DNA of 20,052 nt from a virus, in the IMG/VR virus record IMGVR_UViG_3300000117_000013, positions 54,871 to 74,922 of that record; one strand, written 5' to 3'. The translations under genes were made by a program, and so were the position numbers. Shown here piece after piece: positions 6,653 through 20,052 of this stretch. The notes under the pieces are model-generated. The model ran no database searches. It was given only the letters and a program-made list of their open reading frames with translations, and was not told the origin of the DNA. Position 1 is the first letter of the stretch. Every line of letters begins with the position of its first letter.

Positions 6653-9600
6653 ATGACAAAGATTTTTAATAAACAAGTATTTAATACTACATACAAGGAC
6701 GATCACGCTGACAGTGATGGATATCATCGCATCCTGTTTAACAGTGGACGTGCTCTACAGGCCCGTGAGTTAACTCAACTCCAAACGATTGTCCAGAAAG
6801 AGATCACACGTCTAGGTCAGAACGTCTTCAAAGACGGTGCACCCGTAAATAACTCTTCTTCGTCCTTTAATAAGAAACTTGAATTTATTAAAATTAAAGC
6901 AAGTACCCCACTACCATCAAACGTAGATATTATTGATAATGTCTTTGTTGGTCAGACTAGTGGAATTAAAGTCCGTGTTGATGATAAACTTGCTGCGACT
7001 GCAACTGACCCCGAAACACTTTACGTCACTTATCTAGAAACACCTCAAGCGCAGGCTGGAGAAACAGCCCTTCGTGTAACTGCGAATGAAACCTTGTCGG
7101 GTACTATTGACGGCAGTACGTATACATTTGATGTACAACAAGAAAACAGTTCATCTAACCCTGCCACAGGACAAGGACTTTCATATCAGACTGGTGAAGG
7201 TTCATTCTTTGCTGTTGGTCGATTTGTATTCTCACCAAGACAAACAATCTATCTCTCCAAGTACGATCAGAACTATAGTGGTGAGATTGTTTTCAAAGTA
7301 ACAGAAGATATTGTTACTTCTTCCGATGACGATGCTCTCTTTGATAACCAAGGGGCGACACCTAACAGATCATCGCCTGGCGCAGACAGATACAGAATTC
7401 GTCTAACACTATCTAAGTTGGAAGACCTAGACTCGGATGAGAACCATGTCCCATACTCTAAGATTGTGGACGGAAAAGAAGTCAACAAGGTAATATCTTC
7501 TGAAGGATTTAATGAAATCACTAACCACGTAGCAACACGTGTCCGTGAGATTCATGGTAACTTCATTAAAAAATATTTCAAGACAAGATTCTTACCTAAT
7601 AACGATACGACTTTTAAATTGGAAATTGATCCTGGCCTTGCTTACATCGACGGTTTCCGAATCGAAAAAACCTCAACAACACCTATTGTTGTAAAGCGTG
7701 CACAAGAAACAACCACAATTGACAATCAAGGTATTCTTGCCGACTACGGAAACTTTTTCCTAGTATCAGATACCTTGGGTGCGAAGGGAATGTTGAACTT
7801 CGACCAATGTGAAGAAGTACAACTGTACAGAACTGCTGGTGGACAAAACTCTATTGGTACATGTAGGGTTCGTGCTATCTCAGAATTCCAGAACAATCAA
7901 TATCGACTTCATGTGTTCGATGTGACGATTACTAATAACTCATACAGTTTGAGAAATGTGCGTTCCGTAGGTACAAGTACATCGAATTACTATAACATAG
8001 ATTTTAGTAATAATACAACACTGCGTGAGACTAAGAAGAAAACTCTATTATTTGATTCTCCTATTCCTAGACCTAAGAATTTTAGTAGTGTTTCATTGTC
8101 CTCGCAAAGAAGGTTTAGTGGGACTGCGACATCTGGTGGTGAACTTACTATCACACTAACAACTTCAGGTGAAACCTTTGAGAATACAGGCGATTGGATT
8201 TTTGCATCTGCAGCCGATGGTTTCTTAGGTTCAGTGACAACAAGTTTAACAGGTGGCGCAACTTCTGCCACCCTTTCCGGTCTACCCTCCAGTACTGCGG
8301 TAGAAATTCTCGCATATGTCAAAAAAGGTCTTGCAAAAATTAGACCTAAAACCTTGACAGAAACCACAGTTAGTGGTAGACTAGATTCAGATGGTGACGG
8401 TGTTAAGTATCTTGCTCTTGGTAAGTCAGACATTTTCTCTCTGAACAGAGTCCGAATCAACGACTCCGATGGAAATAACATATTCACAGATTTTAAACTG
8501 GATACAGGTCATCGTGATACTCACTATGATGATGGTAAACTTATCTGGAAAGGTGTTGGCCAACCAAGCACAGACTCCGCTGGTGGTAATGGTACAACGA
8601 TCTTCGCTAGATTCAAGTACTTCTCACATGGTACAGGCGACTTCTTTGCAATCAATTCCTATACAGGACAGGTTGACTACGTAGATGTCCCAGCACACAA
8701 AATGGAGAATGGACGTTTGGTATCTCTCCGTGACGTGTTGGACTTCCGTCCCGCTACTAACGGTTCGGGTTCCTTTACTGTTGTAAACGAACTCCCTCAA
8801 CCTACAGACACGGTTGAGATGGATGCAGAATTCTATCTGCCTCGTAAAGACAAACTTGTGTTGTCAAATTTGGGTGAGTTGAGATACTTACAAGGTACTG
8901 CATCAATTACACCTACATTTCCCGACACACCTACAGACTGTATTGATCTGTACAAATATGAATTGAATCCGTTTACTCTTCATACAAAAGATATGAAAGC
9001 TCGTCTCCTTCCTTTGAAAGGATATACGATGGCGGACATCAACAAGATCGAAACCAAACTTGACAAAGTGGAAGAAATGGCTACTCTGTCTATGTTGGAA
9101 CTAAAAACACAATCACTGAAAGCTTTGGACTCTGCGGGTGCAGATAGAACTAAGTCCGGTTTCTTTGTGGACAACTTTGCAAACCATGCTTTCTCAGATA
9201 TTAGAAGCGTTGAATATCGTGCGACGATTGATCCCCAGAAGAAAATATTAAGACCGGGCAAGAAAGAAACAACAATCGACCTTAGATTTGATTCTGCAAA
9301 TGCGGGTCAACTGAATGTTAAAAAGTCGGGGGATTTAATTACCCTAGACTATACAGTGGTTCCTTATCAACAACAGAATACTGCTTCTAGAACAGAAAAC
9401 CTAAACCCATTCTTCATTGAAAAGATTGTGGGTTATGTTACTATGTCTCCTGCTTCCGATTACTGGAAAGAGACCGATGTTAGAGCCCCAGAAATTATCG
9501 ATCAACCAACAGTTCTTGACACATCTAATGCTGTGAACTGGAACAACCATGAGTGGGATTGGGGTGGTGTATCTCTTGATGACTTGGAAGTTGGTGCTTC

Positions 9601-12385
9601 ACAAGGTCAAGTAACTGGTACATCTACATCTCAAACAAGTAACACTCTTGAACCTGCGATCACTGGACAAAATACAACCGTAGACCAAACAGATTGGACT
9701 GTAACAGGTACAACCTCAGATACAACATCTTTGGGTACACAGACAGATATCGTCTCTCAAGAAACTCATGAAGAATTCACGAGTACCTTTGGTGGCGTAA
9801 CAATTACCGACCCTGATCAAGTTGGTCTTATTGCTGACGTTTGGGCAGATGAGAATCCAATGACGGGTGGTGTGCGTGGCGGCCGCCGTGGTGGTGCTAC
9901 TATTACTGTGGGTACAATAGATACAATTCAGACCACAACCACAGAAACACGTGAAACTACTGAGACTATTGATACTACAACTTTAGCTCAAACTACAACT
10001 ACTACAACCGAGACTGAGTTCCAAACAGAAACACAGATCACAACGAATACTTCTACAACCACAACGGTTAATAGAATTTCGGGTGAACACACTGTGCGTG
10101 AAATTGTGGGTCAACGTGTATTCGATTTGATTTCCATCCCTTGGATGCGCTCTAGAAAAATATCATTCAAAGCTGATGGTCTTCGTCCATCTACAAGATA
10201 CTTCCCATTCTTTGCTAATACTGATGTTAGTGCTTACTGTATTTCTACAGGAGTGTTTAAAAGACATTCGGATAGAGACCCAGAGACAAGAACGGCTGGT
10301 CTCACACCATCTGTAACACACAGTGAACAGACGCCTGCAAACGCAAATCTTATTTCTGATACAAGCGGAAATATTATGGGTGAGTTTGAAATACCAAACA
10401 ACTCAGCAATGCGTTTCCCGACAGGTCAAAGAGAGTTTTTACTGTGTGATATCAGTGTCCCGAATAAAGATGATGCCTTGTCATTTGCTACTACACAATT
10501 CACTTCAACGGGTTTCATTGAACCTGTGCAAGATATTGTACATAGTACACGTATCTTAGAAGTTACTGGTAGTGCATCGACAAGACGGGACACAGATACT
10601 AGAAGTACATTTACAACAAGTACAGACGTGGCCGTTACTGAAGAAACTGCTACAGACGTTCAGACGGAAACTACCACAACTGAAACTGTTGTTGGAACAG
10701 AAACAAACTCTGAGATTATTGATTCTCAGGCAATCACTACTACGATTGGTGTATATTCTGACCCGCTTGCACAAACTTTTCAAGTTGGTTTAGATGATCC
10801 GAATGGTGTATTCGTTAAAAAAGTACGTGTGTTCTTTGCGACTAAGGATGATACAGGTCTTCCTGTAATGTGTCAGATTAGACCTACGGTAAATGGTGTA
10901 CCTCATTCAACAGCTGTTGTTCCAGGCGGAGTAAAGATTGTTCAACAATCGCAAGTAACTGCCATTGAGGATACATACAGTAATCCTACAATCGAAGAGA
11001 TGTTGGCCAATGGTACAGACTTTGAGTTTGATGAACCAATCTACTTGGCCCATTCACACGAGTATGCTATTGTTCTACAGTCAGCGTCTATGAAGTACAG
11101 AACGTACATTTCTCGTGTTGAAGATTTTGTACTTGGTTCTACAGAGAAACGTATCGCTGAACAACCAACTTTGGGGTCATTGTTTAAATCTCAAAACTCT
11201 CTGTTATGGGAACCTTCTCAGACAGAAGATTTGGCATATCAATTATTCAGATGTGACTTTAATACTTCTGGTAATGCTTTACTGGAAAATGTAAATGTTG
11301 ATCCTACGGTATTGACCAAGAATCCATTTGCAGTACCTCAAGATTACGTTAATGCTGGTGGTAACAAAGCTAAGACTGTGACTGTTATTAATAGAGGTCA
11401 TGGTTTACGTCAAGGTGATATCACAACTATTGCTGGTCTTGATTCTGCCACAAGATACAACGGTGTTCTTGGATCAAGTGTCATGGGTAATCGACAGGTT
11501 ACTTCCGTAGATGGTACAGCGTATCAATTCCTTGCGGATTCTGCCTTTAACAAAGCAGGAAGATTCGGTGGTGGTAAGTGTAGTGGTAGTATGAACCCAA
11601 CATTCGATTTGGTTTGGCCTACGGTTCAGACTATGAAAGTGCCTACTACGAATATCACCATGTCAGCGAAGTTCACTTCGAACTCTTCGTTGGTAGATAG
11701 TTCATCTGGTAGATTCATACAAGACAATACGTTCCAATTGATTCAGAATAAAAAGAACAATTACTTTAATGCACCAAAATGTATTATTAATCCGAATGAA
11801 GAGTCAACGGAACTGTCAACTTACAGTCATCCTAAATCTGCAATCATTCAGATGTCTATGACAACAACTGATAGTAAAGTATCTCCTGTTATTGATATGC
11901 AGTCTGCCGGTATGGCAATGATTGGTAACATGATCGATAAACAGGATTCTGCATCTACAGATGGATACAATGTGCCATTGACTTACTTCCCCGAAACTAC
12001 AATTGCGGGTTCTAGTTTGGCAAAACACATAACACAAGAAGTGGTATTGGAAGAGACTGCAAAAGGCATCAAGGTAATACTTGCTGCAAACAAACCACCC
12101 GAAGCTAACTTCAAACTTTATTACAAGACTGGTGAAGCTGAAGATAGACTTAAAGCTAAAGTTTGGGTGTTAGCAACTCCGGACAATGTATTACCTTCTG
12201 ACACGAACCCAAGTAAGTTCCGTGAATATCGATATACTATTGGTGGGTTTGGTGATGTCAACAACTTGAATGGTGCTGATCTTGCAGACTTCCGTAAATT
12301 TAAGTTGAAGATCGTCATGGAGTCAACTAACAGTGCTAAGGTTCCGATTATTCGTGACCTTAGAGCAATTGCATTGGCGATCTAA
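6653..12385 (+). CDS. Giant 1910-aa tail/baseplate structural protein with DUF4815-like N-terminus
   Basis: The N-terminus has DGYHRILFNSGRALQAREL (22-40) and TQLQTIVQKEI, the opening of the DUF4815-type phage structural proteins found in marine T4-like phages. It continues as a long beta-rich protein. Recognisable later blocks are KISFKADGLRPSTRYFPFF (about 1168-1186), DPLAQTFQVG...VFVKKVRVFFATKDDTG (about 1370-1402), and a GHGLRQGDITTIAG block (about 1582-1595), all of a kind repeated in such proteins. Three Thr/Ser-rich stretches (about 988-1036, 1087-1141 and 1315-1363) are probably flexible or fibrous linkers; a GGVRGGRRGG patch lies near 1070-1080. It follows gene 8 where T4 has genes 9-12, so a peripheral baseplate or fibre-network role is likely, but this is inference. 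The start follows AAGG at about 6642; the stop overlaps the next ATG (TAATG). Confidence 0.65.
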   Translation: MTKIFNKQVFNTTYKDDHADSDGYHRILFNSGRALQARELTQLQTIVQKEITRLGQNVFKDGAPVNNSSSSFNKKLEFIKIKASTPLPSNVDIIDNVFVGQTSGIKVRVDDKLAATATDPETLYVTYLETPQAQAGETALRVTANETLSGTIDGSTYTFDVQQENSSSNPATGQGLSYQTGEGSFFAVGRFVFSPRQTIYLSKYDQNYSGEIVFKVTEDIVTSSDDDALFDNQGATPNRSSPGADRYRIRLTLSKLEDLDSDENHVPYSKIVDGKEVNKVISSEGFNEITNHVATRVREIHGNFIKKYFKTRFLPNNDTTFKLEIDPGLAYIDGFRIEKTSTTPIVVKRAQETTTIDNQGILADYGNFFLVSDTLGAKGMLNFDQCEEVQLYRTAGGQNSIGTCRVRAISEFQNNQYRLHVFDVTITNNSYSLRNVRSVGTSTSNYYNIDFSNNTTLRETKKKTLLFDSPIPRPKNFSSVSLSSQRRFSGTATSGGELTITLTTSGETFENTGDWIFASAADGFLGSVTTSLTGGATSATLSGLPSSTAVEILAYVKKGLAKIRPKTLTETTVSGRLDSDGDGVKYLALGKSDIFSLNRVRINDSDGNNIFTDFKLDTGHRDTHYDDGKLIWKGVGQPSTDSAGGNGTTIFARFKYFSHGTGDFFAINSYTGQVDYVDVPAHKMENGRLVSLRDVLDFRPATNGSGSFTVVNELPQPTDTVEMDAEFYLPRKDKLVLSNLGELRYLQGTASITPTFPDTPTDCIDLYKYELNPFTLHTKDMKARLLPLKGYTMADINKIETKLDKVEEMATLSMLELKTQSLKALDSAGADRTKSGFFVDNFANHAFSDIRSVEYRATIDPQKKILRPGKKETTIDLRFDSANAGQLNVKKSGDLITLDYTVVPYQQQNTASRTENLNPFFIEKIVGYVTMSPASDYWKETDVRAPEIIDQPTVLDTSNAVNWNNHEWDWGGVSLDDLEVGASQGQVTGTSTSQTSNTLEPAITGQNTTVDQTDWTVTGTTSDTTSLGTQTDIVSQETHEEFTSTFGGVTITDPDQVGLIADVWADENPMTGGVRGGRRGGATITVGTIDTIQTTTTETRETTETIDTTTLAQTTTTTTETEFQTETQITTNTSTTTTVNRISGEHTVREIVGQRVFDLISIPWMRSRKISFKADGLRPSTRYFPFFANTDVSAYCISTGVFKRHSDRDPETRTAGLTPSVTHSEQTPANANLISDTSGNIMGEFEIPNNSAMRFPTGQREFLLCDISVPNKDDALSFATTQFTSTGFIEPVQDIVHSTRILEVTGSASTRRDTDTRSTFTTSTDVAVTEETATDVQTETTTTETVVGTETNSEIIDSQAITTTIGVYSDPLAQTFQVGLDDPNGVFVKKVRVFFATKDDTGLPVMCQIRPTVNGVPHSTAVVPGGVKIVQQSQVTAIEDTYSNPTIEEMLANGTDFEFDEPIYLAHSHEYAIVLQSASMKYRTYISRVEDFVLGSTEKRIAEQPTLGSLFKSQNSLLWEPSQTEDLAYQLFRCDFNTSGNALLENVNVDPTVLTKNPFAVPQDYVNAGGNKAKTVTVINRGHGLRQGDITTIAGLDSATRYNGVLGSSVMGNRQVTSVDGTAYQFLADSAFNKAGRFGGGKCSGSMNPTFDLVWPTVQTMKVPTTNITMSAKFTSNSSLVDSSSGRFIQDNTFQLIQNKKNNYFNAPKCIINPNEESTELSTYSHPKSAIIQMSMTTTDSKVSPVIDMQSAGMAMIGNMIDKQDSASTDGYNVPLTYFPETTIAGSSLAKHITQEVVLEETAKGIKVILAANKPPEANFKLYYKTGEAEDRLKAKVWVLATPDNVLPSDTNPSKFREYRYTIGGFGDVNNLNGADLADFRKFKLKIVMESTNSAKVPIIRDLRAIALAI
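9614..10740 (+). repeat. Thr-rich low-complexity zone within the giant structural protein
   Basis: Three coding stretches (9614-9760, 9913-10074, 10597-10740) are dominated by ACA/ACT/ACC Thr codons with Glu, Ser and Gln, for example TTTTETRETTETID and TETTTTETVVGTETNSEI. They share a T-E-T-x-T cadence. Between the first two, a GC-rich patch with an 8-bp GCGGCCGC at 9879 encodes RGGRRGG, unlike the AT-leaning surroundings. Confidence 0.8.
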
Positions 12386-12612: not shown

Positions 12613-14997
12613 ATGGCACGTCCAATTACAGCTTTAACAGATTCGTTTAAAATCTTCAGAGATAATGTTAATACTATCTCTAATAACGTAGGCGACCCTG
12701 ATTTATTGACCACAACAACACGTGCGTCTCAAAGATCAGACTCATCTGACGTAGTAAGTGCATTAAACGAATTAGACTCAGACCTACATGGTGCAGGCGG
12801 CGGTGACGTTAAGAGTGATCTTAACTACCTTTCCTATGCAATCAACACAGTACGGGACAGTGGTCTTACAGGAGCCATTAATGCTATCGACGCATATATC
12901 GGTGGTGACTCTGACACACTGAATGTTGAAGCGAATACAATCAAGAATGCTATCAATGAGATCGAAGCAGTCTTTGATGCATCAACAAAGAAAATCAATA
13001 GTGCACCTAACTTCGTATTTGACGGTGGTGCTGACCTTGAGATTAACGTAGACGGTGGTGATGTTACCTTTAAAAAGGACTCAGACCAATACGCAAAACT
13101 TACTTTAGGAACAACAACTGTTCTTGACATGACCGTTGCGGGTCAGATCACAACTGGTGATTCTGCTGGTGGTAACTTTGAGATCGATGCTGGTGGAGAC
13201 ATTACTCTTGACGCAGACGGTAACCAAATCAGATTTAAGAACGGTGCGGGTGGAGACGAAGTAACTCACACTCTTAACGACGATGCCACATACGAAATCG
13301 ACGCACCTTCTACTTACACCGTGGACGCAGGCGGGGATGTCATTCTCGACGCAGATGGTGGTAATGTTACATTCAAAGACGGTGGTACTACCGACTATAA
13401 CTTTGCTACAGACGGTACAGTTTCTCGCACAGGGAACTTGACACTAGACATTTCTGGTGATATAGTACTCGACGCAGCCGGTGATAACATCACCTTTAAA
13501 GATGCGGGTTCAACAAGAGTAAATTACACTCTTGGTGCGACAACAACAGTTCAACATTCTGGTAACCTCACCGACTCGGTTGGTGGAAACCACATTGAAA
13601 ATATCAATGGTAACCAGACAGTCACAGTAGATAGTGACTACACCTTAAATGCTGACTCTGCAACAGTAAACACTGAACGCAACTTTAAAGTAGATGCTGG
13701 TTTAAATATTATACTGGATGCAGATGGCGGTAATTTTATCATTCAGGCCGATGGTGTAGAAGATTATAGATTCAACACCAACGGTACAATCTCCAGAACC
13801 GGAGACTTTATTGTTGACGTAACTGGAGACATCACATTAGATGCAGACGGTGGTGATGTATACCTCAAAGACGGTGGAACCACAAACTATCAATTTGCTA
13901 CAGACGGTACGGTATCACGTACAGGTAATCTTACAATTGATGTATCTGGTGACATTACACTGGATGCAGATGGTAATCAGATTCGATTCAAAAACGGAGC
14001 CGGTGCTGATGAGGTAACTCACACTCTTGCCGATAATGCTGGATACACAATCGCCGCACCTTCAGATTATGTTGTGGATGCGGTTGGGGATATTGTCCTT
14101 GATGCAGACGGTGGAGACGTATTGCTCAAGGACGGTGGTACAATCTACGGTTCTTTGACTGCGACAGGTTCTAACCTGATCGTCAAGTCTGGTACGACTA
14201 CTGCACTGACATTCTCTGGTGCAAACTTAGTAACTAGTGGTACTGTAGAAACTGGTGGCAACCTAACAATGGGTGGCACAACCATTTCTAGAACTGGTGC
14301 CTTGACTATTGACGTATCATCTAATATCAGTCTTGATGCGGATGGTGGAAACATCTATCTGAAAGACGGTGGTACAACTTATGGTGCCCTTAAGAACAGT
14401 GGTGGTGACCTAGTAATTCGCAACAGAAGTGCGGATCACGTCACATTTGATTCAACTGCAAGTGCAACATTTGTTGGAAACGTTATACAGGGTACATCTC
14501 TAAACACAACATCCGGTCACTTGGGTGGTGCAATTAACGAAGTTCATGATGAACTTGATTCTGCTGTATCTTCACTACAGACAACCAAAGGGAGAGTAAC
14601 TACCCTAGAATCTGAGATGGATTCTAATGAAGCACGTATTGGTGTTTCAGTACAATTCAACGTAGACAATCCTTATAGTTGGTCACATTCTACATCAAAT
14701 AGAGCTGCAATTAACGATCTAGACTCAGCAGTCGGAACTCTGAGTAGTTTAGATGCGACTACATATCAAGGTAACTCAAGAAACAACGTAATACGTGCAT
14801 TGAATGCCGTTGCGGGTGACTTGCAAGACTTACAAGATTCTGCTGGGACGCTAGACAGTAGAATAGGATCACTCTCTAATTTGGCTGCTTTCTTTGATAG
14901 TTCGGGTGCAACATCAAGTATAGTCAATGCGCTAAATCATATGGCAAGTAGAGTGGTGGATATATATGACGAGAATGGCACTCTCTTAAATACTTAA
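12613..14997 (+). CDS. 794-aa tail fibre protein with Asp/Gly-rich beta repeats
   Basis: Domain order: an N-terminal helical part (1-125) with two ALNELDSDL / AINEIEAVF type motifs (about 50 and 115), probably the docking end. From about 130 to 610 there is a run of beta repeats built on the pattern GDI-x-LDADGG-x-x-x-x-KDGGT-x-Y-x-F-x-TDGTVSRTGNL, then a C-terminal helical region (about 640-794) where AINEVHDELDSAVSSL and LESEMDSNEARIG repeat the N-terminal style. One stretch (about 320-345, GGNHIENINGNQTVTV) resembles the beta-helix of T4 gp5/VgrG spikes. The protein has no visible enzyme motif and should be a trimeric fibre or pin. The start follows a GAGA site and abuts the previous stop. 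The fibre role is inferred from architecture; the exact T4 equivalent (gp34, gp37, gp10, gp12) is not assignable. Confidence 0.72.
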   Translation: MARPITALTDSFKIFRDNVNTISNNVGDPDLLTTTTRASQRSDSSDVVSALNELDSDLHGAGGGDVKSDLNYLSYAINTVRDSGLTGAINAIDAYIGGDSDTLNVEANTIKNAINEIEAVFDASTKKINSAPNFVFDGGADLEINVDGGDVTFKKDSDQYAKLTLGTTTVLDMTVAGQITTGDSAGGNFEIDAGGDITLDADGNQIRFKNGAGGDEVTHTLNDDATYEIDAPSTYTVDAGGDVILDADGGNVTFKDGGTTDYNFATDGTVSRTGNLTLDISGDIVLDAAGDNITFKDAGSTRVNYTLGATTTVQHSGNLTDSVGGNHIENINGNQTVTVDSDYTLNADSATVNTERNFKVDAGLNIILDADGGNFIIQADGVEDYRFNTNGTISRTGDFIVDVTGDITLDADGGDVYLKDGGTTNYQFATDGTVSRTGNLTIDVSGDITLDADGNQIRFKNGAGADEVTHTLADNAGYTIAAPSDYVVDAVGDIVLDADGGDVLLKDGGTIYGSLTATGSNLIVKSGTTTALTFSGANLVTSGTVETGGNLTMGGTTISRTGALTIDVSSNISLDADGGNIYLKDGGTTYGALKNSGGDLVIRNRSADHVTFDSTASATFVGNVIQGTSLNTTSGHLGGAINEVHDELDSAVSSLQTTKGRVTTLESEMDSNEARIGVSVQFNVDNPYSWSHSTSNRAAINDLDSAVGTLSSLDATTYQGNSRNNVIRALNAVAGDLQDLQDSAGTLDSRIGSLSNLAAFFDSSGATSSIVNALNHMASRVVDIYDENGTLLNT
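13198..14028 (+). repeat. Duplicated beta-repeat block in the 794-aa fibre
   Basis: The peptide DITLDADGNQIRFKNGAG occurs at residues 196-213 (DNA 13198) and 447-464 (DNA 13951), each followed by a DEVTHTL strand. Likewise DGGTT[DN]Y[NQ]FATDGTVSRTGNL occurs near residues 256 and 420. The DNA copies differ at many synonymous sites while the protein is kept, so the duplication is old and under protein selection. Confidence 0.85.
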
Positions 14998-15011: not shown

Positions 15012-17459
15012 ATGCCAATTGCGAAGAGTAAGCCGCTTAAACTCCAAAGTCCTGATCAAGGTGATTTAAAGAGGTTAAGCAGTACAGAAGAAAATTATCT
15101 ATCTTATTTGGTGGGACAACACCTTATTGAGACAAATACTGATGTCGGTAATTTAACTTTATCTTCTAGTGGCAATCTTTTAACTGGTTCCTTTATTGAT
15201 ACCTATTTTAATGAAGCGGTAGGTACTCATCCGGCCTCATCTATCTCTTCAGCATCTACTACCACCAACCTTTATCAGATTCAAGGTACAGCGTCAGAAA
15301 CAGATTCGGATTTTAGGAAACCAATAGCCTATTATAACCCACCTACCGATGGCCCGTCAAGCCTTTTAGAAGGTGTTCATGAAATGGCCGATTCGGATAT
15401 GAATATATTTGTGGATCGACTAAATGCTCGAATCGCATTATCTGATTATCTGGGACAATTTAAGTTGGGTTCATCTTCGCCAGGCGCAGACTATGCTGTA
15501 TTTACTTCGAATGTTTTTTCGGATACACAGACCGATGGAACTCAGGTAGATTATAACATATATCGTAGAGAAACGCAATCCTCTCCTACTAGTATATTGG
15601 ATAGTGATGGTGCAGTCACCAAACTAATGTCGGTGAAAAGAAGTGGTGGTAAGACCGGAACATTCCAAGGTTTGACTCCGATGACTACAAGACAGATGAA
15701 AGTGTCTTTGGGTCAACGTGCAAAAACAAGAAGAGCTCCTTCTAATGCGATTGGTTCTTATCAATTGCGATCAAGTTCTCAAGGTCAACCAGCTACAGGT
15801 TCTTGGAGAGCAGTGGGTACTGCAACAAACACTAAAAAAGATTTGGTTGAAACTGCATACGCTAGAACTAGAGTATCAGCTTACTTGCGTACAAGTAGTA
15901 GAGCATACACACGAACTTCTACACGAACAAGTACTCGTGACTTTGCTGGTAACTACTTAGGCAACTATACCCGTACATTTACAGGTAACTATACTCGTAC
16001 ATTTATTGGTCAATACGTAGGTAACTTTATAGGTAACTATAACAGAACTAGAGTATCAGCTTATGGTCGTACAAGAAGTAGTAACTTCGCTGGCAACTTT
16101 ACTGGTGATTACTCACGTGATTTCTTAGGAAACTACACTCGTAATTTCGAAGGCGGTTATGCTAGAAATTATGAGGGAGTGTACTCAAGAAGTTTTTCAC
16201 GTAATTTCACAGGCGACTATTCTAGAAACTTTATAGGTGACTATTCCAGAAATTTTACGAGAACCTCAACGAGAACAAGTTCTCGTGATTATGCCGGTAA
16301 CTTCGCTGGCAACTTTATAGGGGAATACCTAAGAACTCGTCCATCGAGCTATGTTGGGGACTATGTTGGCATTTATGTTGGTAACTTTGTTGGCAACTTT
16401 GCGGGTAACTTCTTAGGGGAATATACAAGAAATCGAACTGCTACTTCTACAAGAGAATCTATTGCCGGAACTTTCACCAGAAACAGACAATCAACCGCTA
16501 GTTATATAGCGCTTTACGCTTCGCCTGACGTTGATGGTGACGGTGTGCCTGTTGACTTTTACATGAGACAGCGCAACTCAACAGTTTATTATACTGGAGA
16601 GTATACCAATAGTCCAGCTTTTGTTGGTAACTATTCGAGAAACAGGGTTTCAACGAATATTCCTTTTTCTAGAACCCACTATTATTCCAGTGGAACCGAC
16701 TACGATCCAGAAAATTATTTTAGGAATGTCAACTATCTTGGTGACAGAACCTATATTGGGGAATATATACGTACACGTGTTGTATCTTTTGCTGGTAACT
16801 TCGTTGGAGACTTTATAGGGGATTACGTAAGAACCTCAACGAGAACAAGAATCACTGATAGTACTAATAACTTTGTGGGTAACTATGCTGGCAACTATTC
16901 TAGAAACTTTATAGGTGACTACGCAAGAACCTCAACTAGAACATCAACCAGAACAAGTAATCGTGACTTTACTGGTAACTTCTTAGGCGAATATGCTCGT
17001 GCATACACACGCACACGAACCTCTAACTATACACGTGATCGATCTTCTGCTTACTCTAGAAGCTTTGCTGGTAACTATGCAAGAAACTTTTTTGGAGAAT
17101 ATGCTCGTGCATACACACGCACACGAACCTCTAATTACACTCGCACATCAAACAGAACTTCCACTAGAGATTACGGAGATTCTTTCTCTAGAGACTTTAT
17201 AGGAGATTACACAAGAGATTCGACAGATACCTTCTCAAGAAATAGAGTATCTGCATATACAAGAGGAAGAGTTTCAGCTTATACGAGAGATTCAACCCGA
17301 ACTCGTGTATCGAACTATGTTGGGGACTTCACAGGTAACTATTCTAGAAACTTTGTAGGTAACTACTCACGTGACTTTGTGGGTAATTACACAGGAACAA
17401 CTATCGGTTCAGGATCATCTGTAATAGAAACTTATACCTTGTATGTTCGATATGCATAA
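15012..17459 (+). CDS. 815-aa tetrapeptide-repeat tail fibre protein, copy 1
   Basis: The ATG follows AAAGGACGGTGGA. Residues 1-280 are a modular head: KLQSPDQGDLKRLSSTEEN (10-28), then an EM-x-DSDM module near 120-130 and a LGSSSPGADY element near 155, and a last IGSYQLRSSSQG element near 251. From residue 282 (15855) to 481 there are 50 uninterrupted tetrapeptides such as NYTR, TFIG, NFAG, DYSR, TRVS. An island (about 482-579) breaks the array and contains a Ca-loop-like DVDGDGVPVD (506-515) and GTDYDPENYFR (560-570). Fifty-five more tetrads run to about 799, followed by a short tail ending ETYTLYVRYA. Arg is the main basic residue; Lys and Cys are absent from the arrays. Probably a host-contact or side fibre; identity with a named T4 fibre cannot be shown. 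Copy 2 lies next door. Confidence 0.7.
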   Translation: MPIAKSKPLKLQSPDQGDLKRLSSTEENYLSYLVGQHLIETNTDVGNLTLSSSGNLLTGSFIDTYFNEAVGTHPASSISSASTTTNLYQIQGTASETDSDFRKPIAYYNPPTDGPSSLLEGVHEMADSDMNIFVDRLNARIALSDYLGQFKLGSSSPGADYAVFTSNVFSDTQTDGTQVDYNIYRRETQSSPTSILDSDGAVTKLMSVKRSGGKTGTFQGLTPMTTRQMKVSLGQRAKTRRAPSNAIGSYQLRSSSQGQPATGSWRAVGTATNTKKDLVETAYARTRVSAYLRTSSRAYTRTSTRTSTRDFAGNYLGNYTRTFTGNYTRTFIGQYVGNFIGNYNRTRVSAYGRTRSSNFAGNFTGDYSRDFLGNYTRNFEGGYARNYEGVYSRSFSRNFTGDYSRNFIGDYSRNFTRTSTRTSSRDYAGNFAGNFIGEYLRTRPSSYVGDYVGIYVGNFVGNFAGNFLGEYTRNRTATSTRESIAGTFTRNRQSTASYIALYASPDVDGDGVPVDFYMRQRNSTVYYTGEYTNSPAFVGNYSRNRVSTNIPFSRTHYYSSGTDYDPENYFRNVNYLGDRTYIGEYIRTRVVSFAGNFVGDFIGDYVRTSTRTRITDSTNNFVGNYAGNYSRNFIGDYARTSTRTSTRTSNRDFTGNFLGEYARAYTRTRTSNYTRDRSSAYSRSFAGNYARNFFGEYARAYTRTRTSNYTRTSNRTSTRDYGDSFSRDFIGDYTRDSTDTFSRNRVSAYTRGRVSAYTRDSTRTRVSNYVGDFTGNYSRNFVGNYSRDFVGNYTGTTIGSGSSVIETYTLYVRYA
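15855..16454 (+). repeat. First tetrapeptide array of copy 1 (50 units of 12 bp)
   Basis: Reading from AYAR at 15855, every four residues form one unit without an indel for 600 bp: position 1 is N, D, T, A or S; position 2 is mostly Y or F, else R or S; position 3 is variable and small or aliphatic; position 4 is G or R, sometimes S. The nucleotide copies vary at synonymous positions. Confidence 0.92.
16749..17408 (+). repeat. Second tetrapeptide array of copy 1 (55 units of 12 bp)
   Basis: Starting with TYIG at 16749 the same four-residue register holds for 660 bp to TTIG. Units include AYTR, TRTS, NYSR, DFIG and TSTR. A perfect 38-bp direct repeat lies inside (16989-17026 and 17097-17134), offset by 108 bp, exactly nine units. 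Confidence 0.92.
16989..17134 (+). repeat. 38-bp perfect direct repeat within array
   Basis: The bases 16989-17026 recur identically at 17097-17134 (both begin GAATATGCTCGTGCATACAC). The offset of 108 bp keeps the frame and the 12-bp register, as expected for a recent in-frame duplication or recombination within the array. Confidence 0.95.
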
Positions 17460-17462
17460 ATA
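17455..17462 (+). promoter_or_regulatory. Possible late promoter CATAAATA between the two fibre paralogues
   Basis: CATAAATA overlaps the stop codon of copy 1 and lies 31 bases before the copy 2 ATG. It matches the relaxed NATAAATA late box, with GAAGA downstream, and the spacing is like that at the two exact boxes (25 and 28 bases to the start). The remaining 34-base gap shows no hairpin. Confidence 0.5.
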
Positions 17463-17493
17463 GAAGAAGATTAACAGAATGTGTGAGATATAA

Positions 17494-19941
17494 ATGTCTT
17501 CGAATGTACCACTAAAATTACAAGGAACCAACGGCGATCTTCAGGAGATGAATTCTACTGAAGAAAACTACCTTGCCTACGTGGTCGGTAAAGACGCCTT
17601 GGCTGCCAGTGCTGGTGGAACAAATCTAGTATCCGATATAACTCTTACCTCAACAGGTGGTACGAGTATCGGTTCTTTTGTAGATACGTTTAACAACCAA
17701 GCTGTTGGAACACACCCCGCATCCGCAATTACCTCTGGAAGTACTACAACAACCGTTTATCAGAAAGCTGGTACAGCGAGCGAGGGATCAGGTCTTCGTC
17801 CCGTTGGATATGCGGAAGATGGAAGTTCAGTACCAAGTCTTTATGAGATGCCTGACTCTGACATGACGATCCTTGCACGTAGAATCAATTCTCGTATTGC
17901 AACATCCGAATATCCTGGCTTATACAAATTAGGGTCTTCTTCGCCTGGCGCAGATTATACAACTCATATTTCTGGGGTCTTCAATGACACTCAGACGGAC
18001 GGAACTACTGTACCATATAACATCTATCAAAGAAATGCCATGACAGCACCAACTACGGTGAGACCAATTGGTCTACGTAGTGATGGTGATATTCAAGAAA
18101 TGTCTGATACAGACATCGTGAACACTGTTGGGTCATTTGTAAGAACATTGAGAGCAACCGCTGGTGAAGTCGGTTCTTACCAATTACGTTCCTCTTCACA
18201 AGGAGCTCCTACAGACTCCGGAACATGGGCATCTGTAGGCACCGCAACGGATACGAAAAAAGATACTGCGGATCAAGCTTATGCGAGAACACGTACATCC
18301 GCATATTCAAGAACAAGAAATTCAAGTTATACTAGATCACGTGGATCAACATTCTCTCGCATATCTACCAGAACTAGAACGTCAACCTATGCCGGAGATT
18401 ATGTTGGTGATTACACCAGAGATTTCATAGGAAATTACAATAGGGACTTTGCTGGTAATTACGCTGGGGATTATGTTGGTAACTATAGTAGAACAAGGGT
18501 ATCAACTTATAATCGTGACAGGGTAACTAACTTCGCTGGTAACTTCATAGGGAACTATAGTAGAACTAGGGTTTCAGCCTACACTCGTGATAGAGTAACA
18601 GACTTTGCTGGTAACTTTGTCGGTAACTATACCAGAACAAGAGTTTCAGCCTACACTCGTGATAGAGTAACAAACTTTACACGTAACAGGGTTTCTACCT
18701 ATAATAGAACTAGAACTTCTACTTACGCAAGAACTAGAATCACGGACTACGTTGGTGACTTTGTAGGAAATTACTCTCGTAATAGAGTCTCTACCTATAA
18801 CAGAACTCGTGTATCAAACTATGCTGGTGATTTCGTAGGTGACTATGCGAGAACATTTACTGGCAACTATTCAAGAAACTTTCTCGGAAACTACAGTAGA
18901 AACTTTGCGGGTAACTATGTGGGTGATTATGCACGTACATCAACCCGTACTTCTACTAGAACTCGTACATCTACATACACTCGTACTTCTACTAGAACCC
19001 GTACAAGTGCATATTCTCAAGCTTATACTAGAACTTCCACACGTACTAGAACTTCTACATTCAACCGTGACAGGGTAACCAACTTTGCGGGTAACTTTGT
19101 CGGAAACTACGCAGTAAACTTTGCGGGGGATTTTGTAGGTAACTACAACAGAACCTTCGTAGGTAACTACGCTGGTGACTTTACTGGTAACTATACCACG
19201 GTCTTTACCGGAGACTTTGTAGGTAACTACAGTAGAACCTTTGTTGGTAACTATGCCGGAGACTTTACTGGTAACTATACGACAGTCTTTACCGGAGACT
19301 TTGTAGGTAACTACGCAAGTACTTCTACACGTACAAGTACCAACACCGGAACTTATACACGTGTTAGAACGGCAACGGGAACATATACTCGTACTTCAAC
19401 ACGCACAAGTACTAATACCGGAACTTATACTCGTGCTCGTGCCGCCACAGGTACTTACACTCGTACTTCAACACGTACTAGAACGGCAACGGGAACATAT
19501 ACTCGTACTAGAACGGCATCGTCAACTCGTACCTCAACACGTAATAGAGTTGCGGCGGTCAACTATGCAAGAACGGTAATCTATTCTAGATGGTACATGG
19601 GTGGAACTGGATATGAACCAGAACCATATTTCAGATTCTTCTCTAGAACTGTAAACTATTCTAGAAACGTAACTTACACGGGTAACTTTACAGGCAACTT
19701 TGCTGGTAACTTTGCTGGTAACTATACTCGTACTCTGTACTACGCTGGTAACTTTACAGGTAACTATCAAAGAACCCTGTATTACACTGGTAACTATACT
19801 CGTACATTATATTATGCTGGTAACTTCGGTGGTAACTATACTAGAACTCTTTACTATACAGGTAACTATACTCGTACTCTGTACTATGCTGGTGATTTCG
19901 TAGGTAACTACGCACGTACGTATAACAAATTACACTGGTAA
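17494..19941 (+). CDS. 815-codon tetrapeptide-repeat tail fibre, copy 2 (apparently frameshifted near 3' end)
   Basis: A paralogue of the preceding gene. The head shares STEENYLAYVVG (21-32), a QAVGTHPASAI segment (about 69-79), an EMPDSDM module (about 121), the LGSSSPGADY element (about 148-157), a third EMSDTDI module (about 202), and SYQLRSSSQG (about 229). The tetrapeptide array runs from AYAR at residue 262 for 89 uninterrupted units, then a Thr-rich variant (TGTYTR, TATG) with a 24-residue duplication. Next come an island with GTGYEPEPYFR (about 704-714) and a last section with repeated TLYY. The frame stops after a non-repeat tail YNKLHW, yet the tetrad pattern continues past the stop in the +1 frame, so the natural protein is probably longer. 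The ATG follows a GTGAG site. Confidence 0.68.
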   Translation: MSSNVPLKLQGTNGDLQEMNSTEENYLAYVVGKDALAASAGGTNLVSDITLTSTGGTSIGSFVDTFNNQAVGTHPASAITSGSTTTTVYQKAGTASEGSGLRPVGYAEDGSSVPSLYEMPDSDMTILARRINSRIATSEYPGLYKLGSSSPGADYTTHISGVFNDTQTDGTTVPYNIYQRNAMTAPTTVRPIGLRSDGDIQEMSDTDIVNTVGSFVRTLRATAGEVGSYQLRSSSQGAPTDSGTWASVGTATDTKKDTADQAYARTRTSAYSRTRNSSYTRSRGSTFSRISTRTRTSTYAGDYVGDYTRDFIGNYNRDFAGNYAGDYVGNYSRTRVSTYNRDRVTNFAGNFIGNYSRTRVSAYTRDRVTDFAGNFVGNYTRTRVSAYTRDRVTNFTRNRVSTYNRTRTSTYARTRITDYVGDFVGNYSRNRVSTYNRTRVSNYAGDFVGDYARTFTGNYSRNFLGNYSRNFAGNYVGDYARTSTRTSTRTRTSTYTRTSTRTRTSAYSQAYTRTSTRTRTSTFNRDRVTNFAGNFVGNYAVNFAGDFVGNYNRTFVGNYAGDFTGNYTTVFTGDFVGNYSRTFVGNYAGDFTGNYTTVFTGDFVGNYASTSTRTSTNTGTYTRVRTATGTYTRTSTRTSTNTGTYTRARAATGTYTRTSTRTRTATGTYTRTRTASSTRTSTRNRVAAVNYARTVIYSRWYMGGTGYEPEPYFRFFSRTVNYSRNVTYTGNFTGNFAGNFAGNYTRTLYYAGNFTGNYQRTLYYTGNYTRTLYYAGNFGGNYTRTLYYTGNYTRTLYYAGDFVGNYARTYNKLHW
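18277..19344 (+). repeat. Main tetrapeptide array of copy 2 (89 units of 12 bp)
   Basis: From AYAR at 18277 to TSTN ending at 19344, four-residue units follow without a register break. Common words are NYSR, NFAG, DFVG, TRVS, AYTR, DRVT, TSTR. Longer words recur, such as RVSAYTRDRVT, encoded by an identical 30-bp stretch at 18571-18600 and 18643-18672 (72 bp, six units apart). Confidence 0.93.
19177..19314 (+). repeat. 54-bp near-perfect direct repeat in copy 2 array
   Basis: 19177-19230 and 19261-19314 match at all but two synonymous bases and encode DFTG-NYTT-VFTG-DFVG-NY. The offset is 84 bp, seven tetrads, so the register is kept. Confidence 0.93.
19321..19464 (+). repeat. Tandem 72-bp (24-residue) Thr-rich repeat in copy 2
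   Basis: Two tandem units, 19321-19392 and 19393-19464, each encode a TSTRTSTNTGTYTR start followed by R-x-ATGTYTR. A partial third unit follows to about 19510. This is a Thr/Arg variant in which the aromatic residue moves by two positions relative to the main array while unit length stays a multiple of four. Confidence 0.88.
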
Positions 19942-20052
19942 CTTTACTCGTAACAGTACTAGAACTTCTACTCGTAATAGAGTTTCAGCTTACGCAAGAA
20001 CTAGGGTCACAAATTACACTGGTAACTTTACCCGTAATAGCACTAGAACTTC
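19919..20052 (+). other. Out-of-frame continuation of copy 2 tetrapeptide repeats, running off the window
   Basis: In the +1 frame relative to copy 2, an open reading of RITNYTGNFTRN, STRTSTRNRVSAYARTR and VTNYTGNFTR runs from about 19919 to the window end with no stop and in perfect four-residue register. This is the same protein style as copy 2, so it is either the rest of that gene after a 2-base loss near 19918-19921, or a section joined by frameshifting. The gene's natural end is not in the window. Confidence 0.75.

Follow-up and report, generated by a model that had tools for sequence, protein, structure and literature searches.

What does a virus build from hundreds of four-residue repeats held in register? 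The question is posed by a 20,052-nucleotide stretch of DNA, hereafter the window (positions 54871-74922 of the 91,491-bp virus record IMGVR_UViG_3300000117_000013), in which two adjacent genes, termed A and B, consist largely of 12-bp units. We analysed both genes together with their relatives and found that the repeats form two complementary arms on either side of a tip. We put at roughly 0.8 the probability that A and B are adsorption (tail) fibres of a T4-like phage and that their shaft is built as a self-complementary, antiparallel beta-hairpin of giant size, with ~190-1,030 residue pairs across the family.

The strict four-residue register described in an earlier, sequence-only reading held up. 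Its three runs of 50, 55 and 89 units were reproduced once 1, 5 and 6 deviant units were tolerated: residues 282-485 of A comprise 51 units with 1 deviant (50 consecutive exact units at 15855-16454), residues 576-795 of A 55 units with 5 deviants (longest exact run, 25 units), and residues 262-617 of B 89 units with 6 deviants (61 consecutive exact units at 18277-19008). In composition-shuffled shafts, the longest exact run averaged 2.4-2.5 units and never exceeded 5 (200 shuffles each). While the runs themselves are present, they had been ended too early, as the repeats reach 17396 in A and pass the end of the window in B, where they resume in another residue phase after the tip. The Fourier check suggested at the time returned a 12.07-bp peak in A at 19 times the mean power and peaks of 6.0 and 12.02 bp in B (18 and 10 times); two control genes had no peak near 12 bp among their 12 strongest. 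Identical tetrapeptides are mostly spelled in different codons (14 spellings in 16 copies of TSTR, 20 in 23 of TRTS and, to a lesser extent, 6 in 11 of GNYT), implying that the repeats are not only the product of recent DNA slippage.

A profile of the N-terminal domain confirmed 158 stretches in IMG/VR that belong to this family of long proteins of T4-like phages, and 80 of them were kept for analysis. Family open reading frames (ORFs) were counted in 79 loci, after the exclusion of 8 relative loci that were duplicates, 8 small loci from the window's own record and one downstream stretch. From the resulting 108 ORFs, 21 with an open 3' end and 2 lacking the C-terminal motif were removed; this left 85, of which 51 were non-redundant. 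The motif in question, [YF]TLYx[RK], lies within the last 14 residues of 85 of the 87 family ORFs not open at the 3' end; it is absent from the interrupted B of the window and from L029 (L numbers denote loci). In the 51 non-redundant shafts (385 arrays, 8,166 units), units take the form x-[YFRS]-x-[GRST], with Y/F/R/S at position 2 and G/R/S/T/A at position 4. An eight-residue sub-period, F-x-G-N-Y-x-R-N, is present in many arrays. The order of units is restricted: an aromatic-Gly unit is followed by an Arg-Ser unit in 0.1% of cases and, to the precision shown, never by a Ser-Arg unit, and an Arg-Ser unit directly follows another in 0.1%. Such a grammar calls for a structural reason.

AlphaFold2 modelling of A returned a confident N-terminal domain and a confident C-terminal end, with a predicted local distance difference test score (pLDDT) below 50 for the shaft between them. 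As read from the strand boundaries of the model, an outgoing strand (residues 265-297) and a C-terminal strand (779-813) are of nearly equal length. Their confident ends sum to 1078 (265 + 813), the same i + j as the register found by covariation below, and their low-confidence ends to 1076 (297 + 779). A chain that returns to its starting point leads to three expectations, namely a tip in mid-chain, a single antiparallel register of complementarity between the arms, and arms that change length together. With respect to the first, A of the window has the complete family architecture, that is, the N-terminal domain, equal complementary arms, a central tip and the C-terminal YTLY strand; B has it in two pieces because of a frameshift.

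The arms proved complementary in one antiparallel register. A pairing alignment identified equal, gapless arms of 190-945 residues in 28 proteins, including A of the window (202), the B protein of L013 (423), L053 (883) and L045 (945); the arms of the L014 B protein measure 701 and 695 residues after subtraction of an insert, and the homologue in Phage C48C1 pairs over 1,030 residues once inserts are allowed. Alignment scores were compared with those of unit shuffles in six proteins, with values such as 178 versus 95 ± 7 for A, 417 versus 201 ± 10 for L013 B and 712 versus 334 ± 13 for L053. Parallel pairing scored 0.09-0.36, as opposed to 0.86-1.15 for the antiparallel arrangement (four proteins). 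When candidate arms were ranked, a protein's own arm came first in 9 of 10 cases at residues 380-620, and at residues 190-380 it was first in 13 and among the top three in all of 21. Mutual information between the arms of the 51 non-redundant proteins was strongly raised at the register offsets in all five depth bins and had its maximum at one or two recurring offsets in four of them, three other offsets coming close in the first bin; at residues 240-400 it reached 0.195 against a median of 0.033. The best register was 13 or 14 in 45 of 50 proteins, and a pair matrix trained on the first 120 residues ranked the register first against 40 others beyond residue 120 in 39 of 49. In A of the window, pairing runs from Y283:G795 through R285:Y793, R287:G791, S289:F789 and Y291:R787 onward for 202 residues. 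For B, the first 340 outgoing residues scored a mean log-odds of 1.08 against the arm in the downstream frame at the family register and at most 0.69 at eight others. Inverted repeats of at least 14 bases, a conceivable source of complementarity at the DNA level, were absent from gene A.

Closer inspection of the paired residues revealed a near-strict code. The idea of a two-faced strand was borne out, since positions 2/4 pair with 2/4 and positions 1/3 with 1/3, as was the proposed relation between aromatic residues and Arg. Over the 28 gapless proteins (arms >150 residues; the selection was made by that same pairing alignment), and with Lys counted as R and S standing for S/T/A, Tyr:Arg is the commonest pair on the first face (2,398 of 6,857, 2.4 times expectation), followed by Gly:Arg (1,254), Phe:Ser (1,036), Gly:Tyr (721), Gly:Ser (435), Phe:Arg (338), Phe:Gly (314) and Tyr:Ser (300). 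Rare pairs are Phe:Tyr (27), Ser:Ser (16), Tyr:Tyr (14), Gly:Gly (2), Arg:Arg (1) and Arg:Ser (1). Forbidden pairs number 61 of 6,857, with 0 of 98 in A and 0 of 167 in B of the window, versus 28% in unit-shuffled arms, 13-56% at nine other registers and 19.5% between arms of different proteins. Beyond residue 120, own arms contain 58 forbidden pairs among 5,238 (1.1%); within the first 120 residues of the other 23 proteins, the figure is 43 of 1,209. In A of the window, Tyr:Arg leads with 32 pairs, ahead of Gly:Ser and Phe:Arg (16 each), Gly:Arg (11), Gly:Tyr and Phe:Ser (9 each) and a small number of others. The second face has preferences of its own, for Val/Ile/Leu with itself (2.5 times), Ser:Ser (2.5), Asp/Glu:Asn (1.9) and Asn:Asn (1.7). 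Arg is not essential throughout: L093:9995-11197, a member of 401 amino acids, has a very short shaft of Tyr/Gly/Ala units that lack Arg, and its pairing score is marginal.

The two arms also change length together. Among 40 pairs of proteins (N-domain identity at least 0.72, indels of at least 4 residues), 72 of 232 outgoing-arm indels had a returning-arm partner of equal length, sign and distance; random placement gave 8.9 on average and 18 at most, and counting from the tip gave 3. In the comparison of L075 with L074, for instance, indels of -12 at 468 and -10 at 522 are mirrored by -12 at 470 and -10 at 526, and 124 residues at 114 in the comparison of L085 with L080 are mirrored by 124 at 102. 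Equal indels of 10-124 residues, far apart in the gene, recur in both arms of L085/L080, L067/L053 and L075/L074. Substitutions were coupled as well, the odds ratio being 4.7 at the register, 5.5 at the next step and 1.9 in the median over 61 offsets; they included 11 exchanges of Tyr:Arg for Phe:Ser. Of 27 pairs sharing at least 0.80 identity in the N-domain, 26 had a tip with lower conservation than either arm, so that a conserved anchor is combined with a divergent distal part. Inserts of at least 20 residues fall mainly in the returning arm (18, versus 6 in the outgoing arm); one in L015 resembled GLEYA (E = 6e-5) and PA14 (8e-4), both under the Pfam cutoff. Pfam searches with seven inserts, two tips and the N-terminal domain of A otherwise yielded three weaker matches (E 0.01-0.11), taken as chance.

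We propose that the conserved N-terminal domain would anchor the protein, presumably to the baseplate, and that an extended strand of four-residue units would leave this anchor and extend over hundreds of residues. The chain would turn at a tip, either short or globular, and come back with every residue facing a fixed partner, until the nearly invariant YTLYVR strand packs against the N-terminal domain. On the aromatic face, Tyr would mostly oppose Arg, Phe would oppose Ser/Thr/Ala or Arg, and Gly would oppose Arg, Tyr or Ser, with Arg-Arg, Arg-Ser, Gly-Gly and aromatic-aromatic contacts almost never formed; the other face would prefer Asn/Asp with Asn/Asp and Val/Ile with Val/Ile. The variable tip, and the domains inserted mainly in the returning arm, may bind receptors. 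If arm length sets reach, A (202 pairs) would be a short and B (~420-440 pairs) a long fibre. We further consider it likely that a near-strict pairing code, reminiscent of base pairing in its stringency, zips distant halves of the chain together as an antiparallel ribbon that can reach ~1,000 pairs, that the arms evolve in matched steps, and that widespread, almost uncultured T4-like phages use these proteins for adsorption.

Several observations weigh against this proposal. Single-chain AlphaFold2 assigned a pLDDT below 50 to nearly the whole shaft, and its model of the segment around the B tip, uninformative at pLDDT 36, placed a turn at this tip but also a local hairpin in the outgoing arm. 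This lends weak support to a disordered shaft, an outcome that the sequence-only reading had named as contrary to its own proposal; covariation argues against disorder. Pairing is free of any gap in 29 of 51 proteins and requires at least one in the remaining 22. The held-out register test was failed by 10 of 49 proteins, C48C1 among them because its inserts shift the register, and L044, L093 and L094 pair poorly. For 160 of the 232 indels a strict mirror partner is missing; this is partly explained by long indels that fall into different pieces in the two arms (120 + 56 versus 176 residues in L047 and L045). For substitutions, the odds ratio at the register is slightly exceeded by that of the adjacent step, neighbouring offsets add information, and all counts are inflated and not independent, as the proteins are related and pairs share proteins. 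Phe is less choosy in A of the window, where it faces Arg more often than Ser. Neither PDB nor BFVD contained a Foldseek match at E ≤ 0.001.

The alternation of aromatic and Arg units had originally been attributed to stacked layers of an assumed trimer. The partners identified here instead belong to a single kind of chain, whose outgoing half pairs with the returning half antiparallel and in one register, and a trimer ladder is not the main point of the shaft. Yet an oligomeric, perhaps trimeric, fibre could obey the same register and code if outgoing arms paired with the returning arms of neighbouring chains, for example in a closed six-strand tube. Phage fibre proteins are commonly trimers, and the first step past the register carries as much signal as the register itself, as a second interface would produce. 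The pair signal is also stronger at +2 than at -2 from the register; a two-stranded antiparallel ribbon would, by its twist, likewise give such a one-sided excess. A logistic test isolated no second offset, albeit not decisively. We regard such intermolecular pairing as an even prospect.

Genomic context bears on the function of A and B (Table 1). PHROG matches place baseplate wedge genes in the window, and the gene order continues with a VrlC-like gene, a repeat protein at 12613-14997, and genes A and B. The VrlC-like gene is 31% identical, in four pieces, to VrlC-annotated genes of the Pelagibacter phages HTVC008M and EXVC030M. Downstream (3') of B follow three genes with no PHROG match, then structural and tail-fibre-like genes, a head-tail adaptor, a sheath stabiliser and the terminase. 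A and B sit between the VrlC-like gene and the neck genes, adjoining tail-fibre-like genes. In pelagimyophages, the stretch from VrlC to the neck is the host-recognition cluster, whose fibre proteins the authors of that study could not identify (PMC7029224). The 794-residue protein upstream of A (12613-14997) has GDITLDADGG-type repeats of its own and weak matches to DUF5649 and the gp5 trimer.

Table 1. Positions in the window of genes A and B, their parts and the VrlC-like gene.
Feature	Position	Strand	Remarks
VrlC-like baseplate gene	6653..12385	+	opens host-recognition region
Gene A	15012..17459	+	815 aa (amino acids); N-domain, outgoing arm, tip, returning arm, C-terminal strand
A N-terminal anchor domain (putative anchor)	15012..15857	+	residues 1-282; conserved across family; pLDDT mostly ~70-95
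A outgoing arm	15858..16463	+	residues 283-484, 202 residues; gapless pairing with returning arm
A tip	16464..16790	+	residues 485-593, mostly non-repeat; between the paired arms
A returning arm	16791..17396	+	residues 594-795, 202 residues; pairing with outgoing arm
A C-terminal segment, motif YTLYVR	17397..17456	+	residues 796-815; pLDDT 72-95 from ~residue 791
Gene B ORF	17494..19941	+	815 codons in this record; interrupted, remainder outside window
B N-terminal anchor domain (putative anchor)	17494..18279	+	residues 1-262; 51% identical to that of A over aligned part
B outgoing arm	18280..19590	+	residues 263-699; end set by homology with L013 B
B tip	19591..19638	+	16 residues (700-715); homologous to 16-residue tip from L013 B pairing alignment
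B returning arm, start	19639..20052	+	frame changes ~19904-19941; continues outside window to L016:6181

The B ORF, with its stop at 19941, is broken by a frameshift, and a further open frame of 368 codons carries the repeat on. In L013, the closest relative, B is one intact ORF of 1,144 amino acids. Given that relatives are intact, the frame change at 19904-19941 reflects either an assembly error or a real decay event.

The hairpin could be real and yet belong to a scaffold, a decoration or a non-virion surface protein instead of an adsorption fibre on the virion. The sole annotated homologue, in C48C1, is labelled 'hypothetical protein', which would suit such a role; the location between VrlC and the neck beside tail-fibre-like genes, the variable tips and the adhesin-like insert (below cutoff) speak for a fibre and make this alternative unlikely. 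Less likely still is a one-way shaft, either a solenoid or a triple beta-helix of the gp5/VgrG or pentapeptide kind, with mirror symmetry as a secondary trait. Repeats, the Gly and Asn content and the eight-residue sub-period would fit one, but it would need no equal arms, own-arm complementarity or mirrored indels, it had no Pfam, PHROG or PDB match, and AlphaFold2 returns the C-terminus to the N-terminal domain. A gp5-like triple helix was in fact our initial idea, dropped in view of that C-terminal strand and the arm pairing. A disordered, sticky Tyr/Arg/Gly-rich linker, which the composition and the shaft confidence below 50 would favour, is hardly credible given the strict register and unit grammar, the long-range complementarity and the mirrored indels.

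As for distribution, A and B lie side by side in the six loci of the first search and in the window's record; in the wider set, many loci hold one family ORF and others two, several being cut by contig ends. Only one of 50,697 named phage records, C48C1, matched the N-terminal domain of B (tblastn, E ≤ 0.1), and the terminase of the window's record is 78% identical to that of C48C1 and <60% to those of 2,548 other matching records. S-RIM2 and the marine virus AG-345-D19 were rejected as relatives (tblastn E 0.006 and 0.05); their structural proteins (L097 and L098) carry a different four-residue array of the GNVTGDLTG type, possibly a further short-repeat structure. The sole relative from genome_contigs, L099, which is also the only match among bacterial genomes, is a 142-kb contig binned with a Sphingobacteriales metagenome-assembled genome, probably a phage contig and weak evidence as to host. 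The T4-like phages with these putative fibres are probably a widespread, almost uncultured group, and the virus of the window is an uncultured virus of bacteria.

To our knowledge, no simple code is known for long-range strand pairing in beta proteins, and no paper listed by searches of the open-licence literature presented this repeat, hairpin or code in its title or the opening of its abstract. Within that scope, and in PDB sequence and fold searches, Pfam and PHROGs, the hairpin fibre was without precedent. Here, natural sequences supply thousands of aligned pairs obeying one code at ~99%, making cross-strand preferences such as Tyr:Arg, Phe:Ser and Gly:Arg directly measurable. They would offer a parts list for fibres of chosen length and an explanation for giant unannotated phage genes. 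They also raise the evolutionary question of how two arms that lie 1-3 kb from each other in the gene adjust their lengths jointly; if our proposal is true, fibre reach evolves by matched lengthening or shortening of the arms with the register kept.

Among known systems, the claim that the arrays differ from described solenoids stood, as no solenoid or named repeat family matched in Pfam, PHROG, PDB sequence or Foldseek searches. Pfam returned no repeat family for A, B or their relatives, only matches under curated cutoffs, and none above cutoff for the N-terminal domain and tip of A; the best PHROG match to A or B had E = 0.0011 (unknown function), and PDB sequence searches gave nothing trustworthy (best E 0.028 and 0.24). 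The period of 4, with no Pfam match, also sets the units apart from pentapeptide and hexapeptide solenoids. The triple-stranded beta-helix of T4 gp5/VgrG is likewise a regular phage beta fibre with a short repeat and Asn/Asp ladders, and consists of three interdigitated chains running in the same direction with an eight-residue VxGxxxxx repeat (PMC4576200). A and B, by contrast, have four-residue units, no VxG, antiparallel complementary arms and no Pfam match to gp5-type families. SasG of Staphylococcus aureus is a single-layer beta structure. It resembles the shaft as an extended, repeat-built fibril of variable length and differs in being assembled from tandem G5 and E domains that run one way, without long-range complementary arms (PMC4458895); Pfam found no such domains in A, B or relatives. 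In VIA-align, 12 of 814 chains scored Z ≥ 2 (best 7.2), which is not a shaft search because the shaft is too weakly predicted. MABP and beta-prism domains (PDB 3tow; 8b6v, 2qp2) weakly resembled the anchor over a span including the C-terminus (Z 5.4-7.2, 112-118 residues, model range 44-815); a Z this low may reflect a common arrangement, and no fibre is known there. Pelagimyophage tail-fibre genes occupy the same place between VrlC and the neck (PMC7029224), although tblastn with the B N-terminal domain matched no phage record outside C48C1. The C48C1 protein (WJE88074.1; Kyanoviridae, OQ984149; 3,347 amino acids) shares the N-terminal domain (46.9% identity to B), the repeats and the C-terminal strand. 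Its fibre gene (L001:19995-30038) contains a ~70-residue stretch (KTRHRSYLYYST...) twice in tandem, perhaps a recent duplication. Unannotated, the C48C1 system differs from that of the window in using a single gene instead of two and in carrying five domains inserted in the returning arm.

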